The notes under the pieces: generated by a model
Seen by the model: the letters and a program-made list of their open reading frames with translations, nothing else
Told to the model about the DNA's origin: nothing
The model's database searches: none
Part shown: positions 4,487 to 14,944 of the stretch, in pieces
How the letters are laid out: the number at the start of each line of letters is the position of its first letter
Numbering within the stretch: the stretch's first letter is position 1
From: Octadecabacter arcticus 238
Lineage (GTDB): Bacteria > Pseudomonadota > Alphaproteobacteria > Rhodobacterales > Rhodobacteraceae
Length of the DNA stretch: 64,000 nt
Direction: 5' to 3'
Assembly (NCBI RefSeq): GCF_000155735.2
Contig: NC_020908.1
Location: forward strand, 1,803,001-1,867,000
Made by a program: the position numbers and the translations under genes

Positions 4487-4515
4487 AACTGAAGTTCTTT
4501 TTTAAATTATTTATA

Positions 4516-5704
4516 CTCCTGCGCCTGAATTGACCTGAGTTCCCCCCTCAAATCACTTTATATTTCTTGAGCGATATGACGCGGAAGTTGTCGGTGACGG
4601 TGTCGCGGAACTCTGGCCATTTTTCTGGCAGGGTCTTGCGGAAGAAGTCGAAAATGGCCTCTGTGAATTGGTTGAACGTTGCATAGTGCCGATTGTGGGT
4701 GACCCATTTGTGCATAACACCCCAAAGACGCTCGATCGGGTTGAGGTGCGGGGCATATGCTGGCAAGAAATGCAACTTCACCCGACGTTCTGGGCTGTCC
4801 AGCCATGGCTGTAGCATCTTGGCATGATGATAGCGGGCATTGTCGACAAAGACGTGGATGGCCGTCTTGGTTTGGTTGTTGCGTTCCAACTTTTCCAGCA
4901 TCTGTCGGGTTGTCTGGGCATTGATCTTCTCGCCTTCTACAAAGGTGACCTGGAAAGTCTCAAGGTCAAGCGCGCCCTGAATGTTGAGCCGCTTGCGCCC
5001 TGATGTCGCCTTCAGGGCCGTCTTTTGTCCCTTGGGGAACCAACCATGGGCGGGGCGGCTCTGGTGTTCGGGGTGGACAGCGTCCGAAAAGACAACCATC
5101 TCATCTGCGGCCAACCCGTTCATCAGGGCCTCATATTTGGCAATAAACGCAGCCTGCTTGGCTTCATCGGCCTGTGCAGGCAGTAATTGTGGTTTCTTAT
5201 ACGCGAACCCCAGGCGGCGCATCAGCTTGGCGGCTCCCGACGTGCTGTAGTTTTGGTCGCACTCGGCTAGAACATAGGCACAGACCTCATCTACGTTCTG
5301 GGCCGGATGTTCGGTAAAATTGGCTTTCAGCACCTGCTCTTGCAGGACGGACAAGTGGCCCTGACGCTGGCTGTAGTTCTTCAAGCCGAAAAATGACAGC
5401 CCCGCTCCGGCAAAGACAAATCGCCATTCCGTTAAAACTGTCGGGCTGATATCCAATATCCGGCAGACCGTTTCAGCGTCTTCTCCTGCGTCCAGAAGAA
5501 GGAACGCTCGCGCACGTTTCCAAACAAGGGCATCAACTTTGCGGCGGCGGCAAAGCGCTTCGAGTGCTATGCGTTGCTCGTCGGATAAGGAGACTGTTTT
5601 GTATTGCTTGCTCATACGCTCAAAATAAAGACCGGTGCGTCTGTGACCATGCGGCGAACTAAATCGCAGGCCCCGAAGTCGTCAGGTCAATTCAGGCGCA
5701 GGAG
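4516..5704 (-). mobile_element. IS630 family element, copy 1 (intact)
   Basis: Perfect 23-bp inverted repeats at 4516-4538 and 5682-5704 (starting CTCCTGCGCCTG) enclose a full-length transposase. The element is flanked on both sides by TA (4514-4515 and 5705-5706), the usual IS630 target duplication. It is 1189 bp long. The same element, shortened by 23 bp, is at 13779-14944. Confidence 0.95.
4548..5615 (-). CDS. IS630 family transposase
   Basis: The 355-residue protein has an N-terminal helix-turn-helix region (residues 1-110) and a DDE catalytic domain: VVFSDAVHPEH near residue 175, HVFVDNARYHHAK near 255 and the acidic residue in PHLNPIERLW near 292. These fit the D-D-E of IS630/Tc1 transposases. 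It is full length with no frameshift, so this copy could supply transposase in trans to the damaged copy at 13.8 kb. Confidence 0.93.
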   Translation of the reverse strand: MSKQYKTVSLSDEQRIALEALCRRRKVDALVWKRARAFLLLDAGEDAETVCRILDISPTVLTEWRFVFAGAGLSFFGLKNYSQRQGHLSVLQEQVLKANFTEHPAQNVDEVCAYVLAECDQNYSTSGAAKLMRRLGFAYKKPQLLPAQADEAKQAAFIAKYEALMNGLAADEMVVFSDAVHPEHQSRPAHGWFPKGQKTALKATSGRKRLNIQGALDLETFQVTFVEGEKINAQTTRQMLEKLERNNQTKTAIHVFVDNARYHHAKMLQPWLDSPERRVKLHFLPAYAPHLNPIERLWGVMHKWVTHNRHYATFNQFTEAIFDFFRKTLPEKWPEFRDTVTDNFRVISLKKYKVI

Positions 5705-5905
5705 TAAATATAATAATTAGGGCTTTAACGCCTAAAGGCGACTTTGAACCTACCTCATACCCTTATCGTGGTGCAAACAGTCGCGGATGTGAACCATCTC
5801 GAGCGTATCAGCGCACCTTGGAAAATGCCGCGGCGTGCCCCGCCACGGGGTTGAACTCATCGTGTTCAGGACCATCATCTTCGTGGACCCAAAAGGAAAT
5901 TCAAC

Positions 5906-7123
5906 ATGTTGGACGTCATAATGACCCGTAGCGCGGCGCTTGGCGCAATGCAGGCTTTCGTACCGGCGATGGGAAAGAAGTACGAAAACGGGCGTAATTA
6001 CGATCATGGTGCGGGTCAGCACACTGCGGTGTCCGTCCTGTCGCCCTACATTTGTCGCCGTTTATTGTGCGAACGTGAAGTTGTCGCCGCCGCCCTTGCC
6101 GTCCACGGGCCCGATGATGCGCGCGCCTTTATAGAAGAAGTGGTCTGGCGTGGGTATTTCAAAGGCTGGCTTGAACGACGCCCTCAGGTTTGGGCCAGCT
6201 ATGTTTCAGGGCTGAACGCGGACCTTGAATCACTGAAGCGCGACCGACAGCTGCGCCGCGATGTCGAGCTTGCTGAGACGGGGCAATCCGGACTGGGTTA
6301 TTTCGACACTTGGGCACACGAGCTGGTAAATACAGGTTATCTGCACAATCACGCGCGTATGTGGTTCGCATCGATCTGGATATTCACCCTTGGCCTGCCA
6401 TGGCGGTTGGGGGCCGATTTTTTCTATCGCCATTTGCTGGACGGAGACGCGGCGGCGAACACGTTGAACTGGCGGTGGGCGGCGGGGCTGCATACGCGCG
6501 GCAAACCCTATCCAGCCCGCGCCGAAAACATCGCCACGTTTACGGGCGGGCGGTTTAATCCACGAGATCTTGATTTGGCCAAAGTTACTAAAGGCTTGGA
6601 GGCCACCGAACCTGACGGTTTGCCAAATGTTTTACCCCTGCGCGACATGCACGCGCTCTGCACCGGTGTTCCAACCGCATTGTTAATCACGGACGAAGAT
6701 TGCCGGATCGAGGACTTTGATTTGTCCGGTTTTGACATCTGCGCCACGGCGACGTTGTCGTGCACGTACCTGCGCTCGCCGCGCGATGTGCCCGAAAGGG
6801 TCAGCACGGCTGAGCGAGTTGCATTGGCCGACGCCGCCGCACGACTTGGTGTTAGCCCAACACACCTTAGGGCCGATGATCCGCGAGATTTAGTCGATTG
6901 GGCCGTTGGCATTGGCACCAAACAAATTTTTACTCCGTATGTGACACGCGGGCCATTGCACGACTGGTTAACGCGAGCAAAGCCACTCCTCGAAGATCAC
7001 GGCATCACGTTATGTGAAAAGCGTCGCGTTTGGGATGAGGCGATATGGCCGCATGCTACAGCGGGGTTTTTCAAAGTTAGGAAAAAGATCCCACAGATTT
7101 TGCAAGAGACAGGACTGGTATGA
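5906..7123 (+). CDS. Photolyase/cryptochrome-like FAD protein, domains apparently permuted
   Basis: Residues 1-220 match the FAD-binding helical domain of DNA photolyases: SVLSPYICRRLL, FIEEVVWRGYFKGW, then TGYLHNHARMWFASIWIF and LLDGDAAANTLNWRWAAG, which contact FAD in that family. The C-terminal part (about 235-405) looks like the alpha/beta Rossmann domain normally found at the N-terminus, with strands LLITDEDC and FDICATATLS and a closing segment (RRVWDEAIWPHATAGFF). The order is therefore reversed relative to ordinary photolyases. It opens a cluster and its stop overlaps the next start by four bases. Repair, signalling or another flavin function is open. The ATG at 5906 follows AAAGGA. 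Confidence 0.8.
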   Translation: MLDVIMTRSAALGAMQAFVPAMGKKYENGRNYDHGAGQHTAVSVLSPYICRRLLCEREVVAAALAVHGPDDARAFIEEVVWRGYFKGWLERRPQVWASYVSGLNADLESLKRDRQLRRDVELAETGQSGLGYFDTWAHELVNTGYLHNHARMWFASIWIFTLGLPWRLGADFFYRHLLDGDAAANTLNWRWAAGLHTRGKPYPARAENIATFTGGRFNPRDLDLAKVTKGLEATEPDGLPNVLPLRDMHALCTGVPTALLITDEDCRIEDFDLSGFDICATATLSCTYLRSPRDVPERVSTAERVALADAAARLGVSPTHLRADDPRDLVDWAVGIGTKQIFTPYVTRGPLHDWLTRAKPLLEDHGITLCEKRRVWDEAIWPHATAGFFKVRKKIPQILQETGLV

Positions 7124-8055
7124 CGGACATTATTATCATTGGAGCAGGCATCGCAGGCTTGGCCTGTGCGCGTCGGCTGAACGATGCGGGCCGGAATGTG
7201 ATCGTAGTCGACAAGGGACGCGGAATTGGTGGGCGTGTCGCCACACGGCGTGCTGGGGATATGCGGTTTGATCACGGCGCACCGCACGTAAGTGCAACAG
7301 GAGGCGAATTTGCCAATGTGCTTTGCCGCTTAGGTGATTACAAGCACGCCGCCTCGTGGGTCGATACTGCTGGGGAGACTTGGAGCGTGGGAACCCCCGG
7401 CATGTCCGCAATCCCCAAAGGAATGGCAGCAGGATTGGACGTGCGGCTTGGCACTTCGGTTCACGCGGTTGTGCTAAACGGGTCGGGTTGGGATGTGCAG
7501 TGCGACGAGCAGAAATTTGCGGCCGACCGTGTTGTGATAACCGTGCCCGCGCCGCAGGCCGCTGGCCTTTTGGGGCCGCAGCATCCGCTGATGGCGGAGA
7601 TCGCAGGCGTTGAAATGTCGCCTGGTTTGACGTTAATGGCGGCTATATCCGGCAATGTGCCAACCGCGCGTCCGGGCAAGGCGCACGATCCGCTGAGTTC
7701 GATCATTCAAGACTGCAGCAAACCGGGCAGGCCAGACATTGACGGCTCCGCATGGGTGGCGCAGGCAGGGCTGGCGTTTAGTCATGCTCATCTCGAGGAA
7801 GACCGACCGGACGTAGCAGCGCGCATGGTGCTGTTTTTGTGTGATCGTCTTGGGGTCACACCGGACCGCGTCACCCACGCAGTCGCCCATCGGTGGCGAT
7901 ATTCGCGGGTTGCCAACCCATTGGGCCAACCCTTTGCTCGCATGCCAGATGCCACTTTGTACCTTGGAGGCGATTGGTGCGTTGGCCCACTGATTGAGGA
8001 CGCATGGACCAGCGGTACCGCTATCGCCGATGATCTGTTGACGCGCACACTATGA
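7120..8055 (+). CDS. Renalase-like NAD(P)/FAD-dependent oxidoreductase
   Basis: The 311-residue protein starts with a Rossmann dinucleotide-binding motif (IIIGAGIAGLACARRL) followed by the flavin motif GRGIGGRVATRR and RFDHGAPH, typical of renalase-like FAD amine oxidase relatives. The C-terminal FAD contact YLGGDWCVGPLIEDAWTSG is also present, so the protein is complete. No signal peptide is seen; it should be cytoplasmic. Both ends overlap the neighbours by four bases, which implies tight co-translation with the photolyase-like protein and the membrane methyltransferase-like protein. The substrate is unknown. Confidence 0.8.
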   Translation: MTDIIIIGAGIAGLACARRLNDAGRNVIVVDKGRGIGGRVATRRAGDMRFDHGAPHVSATGGEFANVLCRLGDYKHAASWVDTAGETWSVGTPGMSAIPKGMAAGLDVRLGTSVHAVVLNGSGWDVQCDEQKFAADRVVITVPAPQAAGLLGPQHPLMAEIAGVEMSPGLTLMAAISGNVPTARPGKAHDPLSSIIQDCSKPGRPDIDGSAWVAQAGLAFSHAHLEEDRPDVAARMVLFLCDRLGVTPDRVTHAVAHRWRYSRVANPLGQPFARMPDATLYLGGDWCVGPLIEDAWTSGTAIADDLLTRTL

Positions 8056-8873
8056 TGCAGGACCCGCGTATTGCGCGCCTTGTGGCCTTGATCCTAACCG
8101 CGATCAGACCGCCTGCGGGGACGGCGCGCATCGCGTTGGCGTTGGGAATGGGATTTGTGTGCCACGTCACGTTTGCCATCGCTATTCTGGCAATGATTGC
8201 CGCCATGTTTTTTGGCCTGAGCGAAAGCTTTGGAACCGTGCCATGGCCGTGGGCTGCGTTGGCGAACCTGGCGTTGATTGTACAATTCCCGCTTGTTCAT
8301 TCCATTTTGTTGACAAAGCGCGGTGGCAGTTTGCTGTCCAAACTCGTCCCCGGCCCACATGGTCGCACACTAGCGACGACAACCTACGCCATCATCGCCT
8401 CCGTGCAGTTGTTGGCATTGTTTGCACTCTGGACGCCTTCAGGGATCGTGTGGTGGCGTGCGGATGGTGCTGCGTTCTGGCTGCTTACGACCGCCTACGC
8501 AGCCAGTTGGCTTTTGCTAACAAAGGCCAGTTTTGACGCAGGCGCCGAGGTTCAGTCCGGCGCGCTTGGCTGGATGTCATTGCTGGGTCGCATTCGACCC
8601 GTGTTTCCCGATATGCCAAACCTAGGGCTGTTTCGTCTGATCCGTCAGCCGATCTATGTCGCCTTTGCGCTGACGCTCTGGACTGTTCCTGTCTGGACAC
8701 CGGATCAATTGGTGCTGGCCGTGATCTACACTGCTTACTGCCTGTTTGCGCCTCGTTTGAAAGAACGTCGGTTTGCTGCGCGCTATGGCACGGAATTTCA
8801 AACCTACCGCGCTGAAGTTCCCTATGTCGTCCCACACCGAACCTCGACTGAAACAGGTCGAGACACGCAGTAG
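8052..8873 (+). CDS. Membrane protein of the isoprenylcysteine methyltransferase/NnrU/MddA fold
   Basis: The 273-residue protein contains five or six hydrophobic segments (about residues 30-55, 68-90, 108-135, 140-165, 205-230). The C-terminal pattern RLIRQPIYVAFALTLW followed by YCLFAPRLKERRF and YRAEVPYVVP resembles the cofactor-binding end of ICMT-like membrane methyltransferases, including methanethiol S-methyltransferase. The middle motif with LVHSILLTKRGG also suits the MddA/NnrU group. It would methylate a small or lipid-like substrate with SAM at the inner membrane, but the substrate cannot be told. It is coupled to the oxidoreductase by a four-base overlap. Confidence 0.65.
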   Translation: MMQDPRIARLVALILTAIRPPAGTARIALALGMGFVCHVTFAIAILAMIAAMFFGLSESFGTVPWPWAALANLALIVQFPLVHSILLTKRGGSLLSKLVPGPHGRTLATTTYAIIASVQLLALFALWTPSGIVWWRADGAAFWLLTTAYAASWLLLTKASFDAGAEVQSGALGWMSLLGRIRPVFPDMPNLGLFRLIRQPIYVAFALTLWTVPVWTPDQLVLAVIYTAYCLFAPRLKERRFAARYGTEFQTYRAEVPYVVPHRTSTETGRDTQ

Positions 8874-8940
8874 CGGCGGATTGACGCGATTAACGTCCAG
8901 CGCATGATCTGGGGCGTACCTATTACAAAGGAGATCGTTA

Positions 8941-9491
8941 TGGATTTTGAAAACAACACAAAGACCCTGCTGCTGGTCGAGGATGATGATGCGTTTCGGT
9001 CGCGTCTAGGTACCGCGTTGCAAAAAAGAGGGTTTAACATTACGTCTGCCTCAAGCGTTGCCGAGGGTCTGAGTGCGGTCCGCATGAATGCACCGGAATA
9101 TGCAGTCATTGACCTTAGGTTGCAGGATGGAAGCGGGTTGGACGTCGTTGAGGCGCTAGAACAACAACGCCCTGATGCGCGCGCGATCATTCTGACGGGG
9201 TACGGCAATATTCAGACTGCCGTCGCAGCAACGCGTCTTGGGGCCATCGACTATATGACTAAGCCCGCCACAGCCGACGAGATTGTCGATACGCTCATGG
9301 CCCCAAACGGCACACGGCCACCGGCACCAGATGCGCCCATTTCACCCGACGATGCACGGTTTGAACACATCGAACAGGTCTTTCACGAGGCGGGCGAAAA
9401 CGTTTCAGAGACCGCGCGGCTTTTGCAGATGCACCGTCGAACATTGCAGCGCATTTTGAGCCGTCATAAAGTCGTCAAAGATGCAGCGTAA
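8941..9491 (+). CDS. RegA/ActR/PrrA-type redox response regulator
   Basis: The 183-residue product has a receiver domain (LLLVEDDDAF acidic pocket, phospho-acceptor Asp in VIDLRLQDGSG, Thr in ILTGYGN, Lys in YMTKPA), a proline-rich linker, and a C-terminal Fis-type helix-turn-helix (SETARLLQMHRRTLQRIL) nearly identical in pattern to RegA/PrrA. Those regulators control photosynthesis, respiration and carbon fixation genes with the sensor kinase RegB. No regB or senC lies nearby, so this is an orphan. The ATG at 8941 follows AAAGGAGA, which decides it against an upstream in-frame start at 8904. Confidence 0.85.
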
Positions 9492-9933
9492 CGACAATGA
9501 TGTGATCGCAATTCGGAGCAATCCGGAGAATAGTAGTGCAGACCAAACGTTTAAAAAAGGGCCGACCATCTACTTTGACGGGTCGTGTCCGCTGTGTTCG
9601 ATTGAAATAGATCATTATGCGTCTCGCGTGGGTGGCGACAAACTGGGCTTTGTCGATGTATCCCGCAACGATGCCCGACTTGGCGCTGATCTTACGTCTG
9701 ATACGGCGATGCGTCGGTTCCATGTTCGCCGATCGGATGGCTCACTCGTCTCTGGAGCACGGGCATTTATCGAGGTCTGGGAGACGCTACCGGGGTGGCA
9801 GTGGGCCGCCAGTGTGGCCAAGATCCGCGGAGTATTGCCGGTGCTTGAGATCGGGTATCGCGCTTTTCTGCCGATCCGTCCTTTCATATCAAAGGTTATG
9901 GGGCGCTTCAGTGCGCACAAGGTTTCTAAGTGA
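9481..9933 (+). CDS. DCC family (DUF393) thiol-disulfide protein
   Basis: The 150-residue protein has the family signature IYFDGSCPLCSIEIDHY near residue 30, giving the Cys-x-x-Cys pair and the D-C-C pattern for which the family is named, and a later RSDGSLVSGARAF segment. DCC proteins have a thioredoxin-like fold with unknown redox partners. The gene overlaps the regulator by 11 bases. Its place behind a flavoprotein pair and a redox regulator supports a role in thiol or light/oxygen stress, but that is inference. Confidence 0.8.
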   Translation: MQRNDNDVIAIRSNPENSSADQTFKKGPTIYFDGSCPLCSIEIDHYASRVGGDKLGFVDVSRNDARLGADLTSDTAMRRFHVRRSDGSLVSGARAFIEVWETLPGWQWAASVAKIRGVLPVLEIGYRAFLPIRPFISKVMGRFSAHKVSK

Positions 9934-10416: not shown

Positions 10417-10728
10417 TCATTTGCCGCGCCAGATCAATGACTGGCGATTAAGTATATGCAGATCGGCGCGGCCTGCCATAATATCTTCGCACAATTGCAC
10501 AGCGCGAACGGCCTGATCGCGAGAAAGATGTTTGTATGCTGGACGCGCGAGGTTTTCATACCAGACACCATTGCTCACAGTGTCCAAAACGATGCATTGG
10601 AAGCAATGATCATATAGCACAGGCCAGTTAGTGTCAGACGTGCGCGCCATCTGTGGCAGGACTTCTTTGGTCAGAACAAGATAGCGGCTGACGAGGTCGG
10701 CGGTGCGGCATTCGGGTTGGTTCACCAC
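10417..10728 (-). CDS. Hypothetical soluble protein
   Basis: The 103-residue protein has a plausible globular composition with a central segment WPVLYDHCFQCIVLD and a helical C-terminus. No domain is recognised. It lies between small minus-strand genes in the chromosomal block ahead of the IS pile-up. The amino-acid mix and absence of stop-rich alternatives suggest a real gene. Confidence 0.5.
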   Translation of the reverse strand: MVNQPECRTADLVSRYLVLTKEVLPQMARTSDTNWPVLYDHCFQCIVLDTVSNGVWYENLARPAYKHLSRDQAVRAVQLCEDIMAGRADLHILNRQSLIWRGK

Positions 10729-13791: not shown

Positions 13792-14944
13792 ATTGACCTG
13801 ACGATTTTGGGCCTGCGATTCACTTCGTCGCATGGCCAAAGGCGGTTCAGTCTGTATTTTGAGTTTATGAGCAAGCAGTACAAAACAGTCTCCTTATCCG
13901 ACGAGCAGCGCATAGCACTTGAAGCGCTTTGCCGCCGCCGCAAAGTTGACGCCCTTGTTTGGAAACGGGCGCGCGCGTTTCTTCTTTTGGACGCAGGAGA
14001 AGACGCCGGAACGGTTTGCCGGATTTTGGATATTGGCCCGACAGTTTTGACGGAGTGGCGATTTGCCTTTGCCGGTGCGGGACTATCGTTTTTCGGTCTG
14101 AAGGACTACAGCCAGCGTCAGGGTCATTTGTCCGTCGTGCAAGAGCAGGCGGTGAGAGCCCATTTCACCGCGCAGCCTGCCCGCAATGCCGATGAGGTCT
14201 GTGCCTATGTTCTAGCCGAGTGCGACCAAAACTACAGCACGTCGGGAGCCGCCAAGCTGATGCGCCGCCTGGGGTTCGCGTATAAGAAACCACAATTACT
14301 GCCTGCACAGGCCGATGAAGCCAAGCAGACTGCGTTTATTGCCAAATATGAGGCCCTGATGAACGGGTTGGCCGCAGATGAGATGGTTGTCTTTTCGGAC
14401 GCTGTCCACCCCGAACACCAGAGCCGCCCCGCCCATGGTTGGTTCCCCAAGGGACAAAAGACGGCCCTGAAGGCGACATCAGGGCGCGCTTGACCTTGAG
14501 ACTTTCCAGTTCACCTTTGTGGAAGGCGAGAAGATCAATGCCCAGACAACCCGACAGATGCTGGAAAAGTTGGAACGCAACAACCAAACCAAGACGGCCA
14601 TCCACGTCTTTGTCGACAATGCCCGCTATCATCATGCCAAGATACTACAGCCATGGCTGGACAGCCCAGAACGTCGGGTGAAGTTGCATTTCTTGCCAGC
14701 ATATGCCCCGCACCTCAACCCGATCGAGCGTCTTTGGGGTGTTATGCACAAATGGGTCACCCACAATCGGCACTATGCAACGTTCAACCAATTCACAGAG
14801 GCCATTTTCGACTTCTTCCGCAAGACCCTGCCAGAAAAATGGCCAGAGTTCCGCGACACCGTCACCGACAACTTCCGCGTCATATCGCTCAAGGAATACA
14901 AAGTGATTTGAGGGGAAAACCTCAGGTCAATTCAGGCGCGGGAG
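13779..14944 (+). mobile_element. IS630 family element, copy 2 (internally deleted)
   Basis: The same element as 4516-5704 lies here in the opposite orientation, with TA at 13777-13778 and 14945-14946 and inverted repeats that differ by one base. It is 1166 bp long, exactly 23 bp shorter than copy 1. It interrupts the end of the preceding hypothetical gene. Confidence 0.95.
13867..14911 (+). pseudogene. IS630 transposase broken by a 23-bp deletion
   Basis: The first part (13867-14493) follows copy 1 to ATSGR and then ends; the rest (14519-14911) continues in another frame. Compared with copy 1, a 23-bp segment is missing at about 14487, between two copies of the 9-mer TCAGGGCGC, leaving one copy. 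The deletion shifts the frame ahead of the second catalytic aspartate region, so no active transposase can be made. Confidence 0.9.

Follow-up and report, generated by a model that had tools for sequence, protein, structure and literature searches.

A stretch of 64,000 nucleotides from the genome of Octadecabacter arcticus 238 (contig NC_020908.1, positions 1,803,001 to 1,867,000; hereafter the window) carries a gene for a short photolyase-like protein. As a whole, this gene is best explained, at a probability of about 0.93, as encoding a light-driven cyclobutane pyrimidine dimer (CPD) photolyase of the NewPHL class, judging from its sequence and from the analogy with reported relatives. The reversed domain order of the product is real but belongs to an already described class. 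The novelty that an earlier note on this DNA had implied for the arrangement is therefore lost, since the published NewPHL class has the same layout, to which the window protein adds one more sequence. The NewPHL class was reportedly described by Emmerich et al. in 2020 (Nucleic Acids Res 48:12845).

Domain order, active site and class

The earlier note had placed a flavin adenine dinucleotide (FAD)-binding half at the N-terminus and a Rossmann-like half at the C-terminus, opposite to ordinary photolyases, and Pfam, the predicted model and structure matches all bear this out. The photolyase FAD domain PF03441 (residues 75-206) was the only Pfam family above its cut-off in the window protein, and the NCBIfam photolyase/cryptochrome models matched far under their cut-offs and by their C-terminal parts only; the FAD half thus comes first. 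The antenna domain PF00875 was not detected by Pfam in the window protein, either at the N-terminus or, at the family cut-off, in the second half. Because PF00875 does not stand ahead of the FAD domain, a canonical class I photolyase was ruled out. A DASH cryptochrome was ruled out by the TIGR02765 score (71.2 bits, cut-off 317, over profile positions 230-400 only) and the lack of an N-terminal antenna domain. In a structure search, residues 1 to 237 of the model superposed on the FAD half of photolyases. Neither outcome that would have spoken against the earlier note was found: an unrelated fold in the C-terminal half, called the Z-domain, or an N-terminal half lacking FAD-contacting geometry.

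The window protein is 46% identical (residues 7-399, E 3e-95) to a short photolyase picked from a genome taken as Dinoroseobacter shibae DFL 12 (G073). Excerpts of PMC13274461 ascribe an "inverted domain topology" to NewPHL, and NewPHL relatives are reported to repair CPDs in that source and in PMC9426592. Members of the class include A8LJA9 of D. shibae and M7YZC8 of Methylobacterium mesophilicum. According to passages of PMC9426592, Prochlorococcus Phr7 consists of an N-terminal FAD domain and a C-terminal Z-domain, a type of enzyme for which single-strand CPD photolyase activity has been demonstrated in D. shibae and M. mesophilicum.

Residue equivalences were taken from an alignment of the window protein with Escherichia coli photolyase (1dnp), and conservation was counted over 127 sequences, the window protein among them. 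R30, which aligns with E. coli R226, is invariant, as are E78, W81, N148, W166, D179, D181, W189 and W191, while M152 and N185 are present in 126 of the 127. The aligned E. coli residues (R226, E274, W277, N341, M345, W359, N378, W382 and W384) belong to the CPD-photolyase site and the tryptophan chain, of which W359, matched by W166, is the middle member. At column 112, corresponding to E. coli W306, none of the 127 sequences has a tryptophan, and columns 106-119 hold six tryptophans in total. The residues thus outline a predicted tryptophan dyad of W189 and W166 with the outer third tryptophan missing. The absence at column 112 fits the mere dyad that the D. shibae NewPHL is said to have in an excerpt of PMC8948257.

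Judging from fold and residues, the N-terminal helical domain would bind FAD. By the known CPD-photolyase mechanism, blue light would then excite the reduced FAD, which would pass an electron into the CPD and split it. The dimer would be held by E78, W81, N148, M152 and W191, and the two-tryptophan chain, running from W189 to W166, would keep FAD reduced. The probable role of the Z-domain is to cover the FAD site, not to act as a complete antenna domain; the abstract of Emmerich et al. 2020 reportedly states that the NewPHL C-terminal domain seals this site. By analogy with the D. shibae and M. mesophilicum enzymes, the substrate is probably the CPD in single-stranded DNA.

Origin of the Z-domain

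The C-terminal half was folded and searched by itself, instead of superposing the full-length model irrespective of domain order. The predicted Z-domain has the antenna-domain fold of photolyases: all five Foldseek matches at E <=0.001 were photolyases or cryptochromes, and photolyases occupied 39 of the 50 rows with 148 residues aligned, as against 114 for stress proteins. No solved structure covered this half by sequence, as the stretches matched in 49 sequences at E <=10 ended by residue 292 and mostly by residue 220. The resemblance to the usual N-terminal photolyase domain, proposed in the earlier note, consequently holds at the level of fold. At the level of profiles, three of the 72 C-terminal halves gave a weak match to PF00875 (best E 0.011), and nothing reached the family cut-off.

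Among 119 other full-length relatives, two likewise matched PF00875 weakly (best E 0.015, the protein region of the match not being given). Comparison of Z-domain with photolyase N-domain profiles gave P values of 0.0021 to 0.038 depending on the set, whereas P was 0.37-0.57 for reversed controls run in local mode; in enlarged sets P was 0.0021, 0.025 and 0.017 by choice of Z set. Alignment of 72 Z-domains with 11 N-domains by hhalign gave no sequence proof of a permutation. The Z profile matched 12 sequences of solved structures, no photolyase among them, and the best four of the 12 (E 9e-4 to 0.0023) were ETV6 fusion constructs whose repeats were summed, no single stretch passing alone. A PF00875 search of the O. 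arcticus genome listed neither NewPHL copy.

On the modelled fold, shared descent of the Z-domain and the photolyase antenna domain is more probable than not, though unproven, and the sequence signal for it is weak. Another possibility, which we regard as unlikely but worth weighing, would be that the Z-domain is a separately recruited HUP-type domain and not a displaced antenna domain. The HUP-type fold is common to universal stress proteins and N-type ATP pyrophosphatases. The longer alignments with photolyases, their share of the rows and the identity of all five best matches argue against such a recruitment, as do the weak PF00875 matches and the reversed controls. NewPHL membership would be unaffected by it. 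The class may have originated from a photolyase through circular permutation: the fold fits, but the sequence signal is weak.

Relatives, other readings and genomic setting

Our survey covered 395 genomes of the family, with at most four candidates scored per genome. The query was matched at E 0.001 in 347 of them, ordinary photolyases included. Full-length matches of the short type were found at no fewer than 140 places in at least 131 genomes (excluding partial rows and a single row at 35%); these counts are lower bounds because of the limit of four candidates. Eight genomes have two or more short-type copies.

Two points weigh against the NewPHL assignment. In 4 of the 395 genomes, one copy is at least 59% and another at most 48% identical to the window protein, and the presence of both types in one genome makes a changed role of one copy possible. 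In a midpoint-rooted FastTree phylogeny, the window protein lies outside the D. shibae clade, the two first joining at a node of 125 of the 127 sequences. Few positions tell the clades apart, and none is a listed active-site residue. The window protein differs from the D. shibae-type NewPHL by a two-residue insertion, E235-P236, and has R51 in place of H in most of the window clade. The window clade has about half identity to the D. shibae type, and a few genomes contain both. It might have a distinct job, acting for example on a different nucleic acid or together with the flavin oxidoreductase and MddA-like genes that come after it, and its Z-domain might be a trimmed antenna domain, so that the class would be a true domain permutation of photolyase. 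We consider this combination improbable.

In a Loktanella genome (L051, about 6001-7196), two overlapping frames encode the FAD part and the Z-domain separately, with a break near the linker that may be a sequencing error. A parallel with cyanobacterial phr4/phr5 was not retained for this single case, since an apparent second example (G396) shares its 269117-base contig.

Photolyases have repeatedly become cryptochromes, and the O. arcticus genome has six PF03441 places: the window gene, a copy with 81% identity to it, a photolyase of 473 aa, two photolyase-like genes of 532 aa and a similar gene that a transposase interrupts. Other genes could therefore carry out repair, and the window protein could be a cryptochrome-type light sensor that has lost it. 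This is very unlikely, given the invariant or nearly invariant CPD-site residues, the reported repair by relatives and the lack of a signalling extension beyond the C-terminal domain in the model; retention of the CPD-site residues was the ground for rejecting it. Least probable of all is a decayed, non-functional gene, despite a transposase element (4512-5706) that stops 200 bases 5' of the start codon and a partial third copy in this transposon-rich genome, as the frame is intact, the active-site residues are kept and the ratio of nonsynonymous to synonymous substitution rates (0.11-0.14) indicates purifying selection.

Table 1. Coordinates in the window of the photolyase gene, its parts and the two following genes
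Feature	Position	Strand	Basis
NewPHL-class photolyase gene (assigned), 405 aa	5906..7123	+	Open reading frame, Pfam, relatives, model
AGGA, Shine-Dalgarno-like, 8 bases 5' of ATG	5894..5897	+	Inferred from sequence
N-terminal FAD-binding catalytic domain, residues 1-238	5906..6619	+	
Linker, residues 239-254	6620..6667	+	Model without regular secondary structure there
C-terminal Rossmann-like Z-domain, residues 255-405	6668..7120	+	
E78 to W81 (E. coli E274, W277)	6137..6148	+	Both 127/127
N148 to M152 (E. coli N341, M345)	6347..6361	+	127/127, 126/127
W166 (E. coli W359)	6401..6403	+	127/127
N185, W189, W191 (E. coli N378, W382, W384)	6458..6478	+	126/127, 127/127, 127/127
FAD/NAD(P)-binding amine-oxidase-like protein	7120..8055	+	PF01593, PF13450; start overlaps NewPHL stop by four bases (ATGA)
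MddA-like membrane methyltransferase	8052..8873	+	NCBIfam MddA 82.7 bits, cut-off 270; overlaps previous stop

Among 147 loci with a NewPHL match (the window itself and duplicates included, many with just 1.5 kb flanks), 27 have the FAD protein, 24 an MddA-like gene and 16 a UbiG-like methyltransferase. This repeated adjacency suggests that NewPHL relatives, the amine-oxidase-like FAD protein and the MddA-like gene form a cluster. The UbiG-like methyltransferase follows these two genes in several genomes. In the window, a redox response regulator resembling ActR/PrrA/RegA (239 bits, below the cut-off of 250) and then a DCC1-like thiol-disulfide protein occupy 8904-9933, a pair also found near NewPHL copies in L118, L120 and L121. 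A 103-aa frame at 10417-10728 on the minus strand has no Pfam or NCBIfam match and recurs by NewPHL relatives, the Z-domain remnant described below included, at 7 of the 147 loci.

The upstream transposase element is of the IS630 type (DDE_3 transposase 4548-5615, minus strand) and shares about 94.5% identity with two copies in another locus of this genome, L117; a further transposase copy starts near 13807. Locus L117 also holds a Z-domain-only frame of 183 residues (G000:C1:1746794-1747300; L117:6776-7324, minus strand), 61% identical to residues 235-402 and probably the remnant of a third NewPHL copy. It adjoins a Sel1-repeat frame, between transposase copies. At L117:3626-6458 (minus strand), a photolyase-like gene is split by an IS630-type transposase frame, with the PF00875 part on one side and PF03441 on the other; its two intact 532-aa relatives lie elsewhere in the genome.

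Comparison with known systems

The window protein and the NewPHL enzymes of D. shibae and M. mesophilicum share an N-terminal FAD domain, a C-terminal alpha/beta domain, a length of about 400 aa, the tryptophan dyad and the CPD-site residues. Class I and III CPD photolyases (1dnp, 1owl, 4u63) have in common with it the FAD domain fold, the active-site residues and the antenna-domain fold in the other half. They differ in the opposite domain order, and the second half of the window protein has no sequence match at the family cut-off.

Xu et al. 2021 reportedly found four conserved cysteines for an iron-sulfur (Fe-S) cluster in some members of the Fe-S group of short photolyase-like proteins. 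No conserved four-cysteine set occurs among the 127 sequences, where just two columns have cysteine in at least 60 and one of these is tyrosine in the window protein; membership in that group was ruled out on this ground. Prochlorococcus Phr7, known by description and tied to NewPHL in excerpts of PMC9426592, shares the order of FAD domain and Z-domain with the window protein and differs in being cyanobacterial. Cyanobacterial Phr4 plus Phr5, and Phr6, also known by description, likewise have the FAD domain first, but in them a photolyase domain is recognised in second place; the same excerpts contrast Phr7 with them for its lack of Fe-S cysteines, and the window protein too has no such set conserved among its relatives.

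The unusual domain order seen in the raw sequence is thus real and traceable to a published enzyme class. This class bears on how photolyases and cryptochromes arose, because the D. shibae enzyme is called ancestral in an excerpt of PMC8948257. The window member extends the known NewPHL enzymes to a polar marine case, in which one genome carries two intact copies together with a probable remnant.
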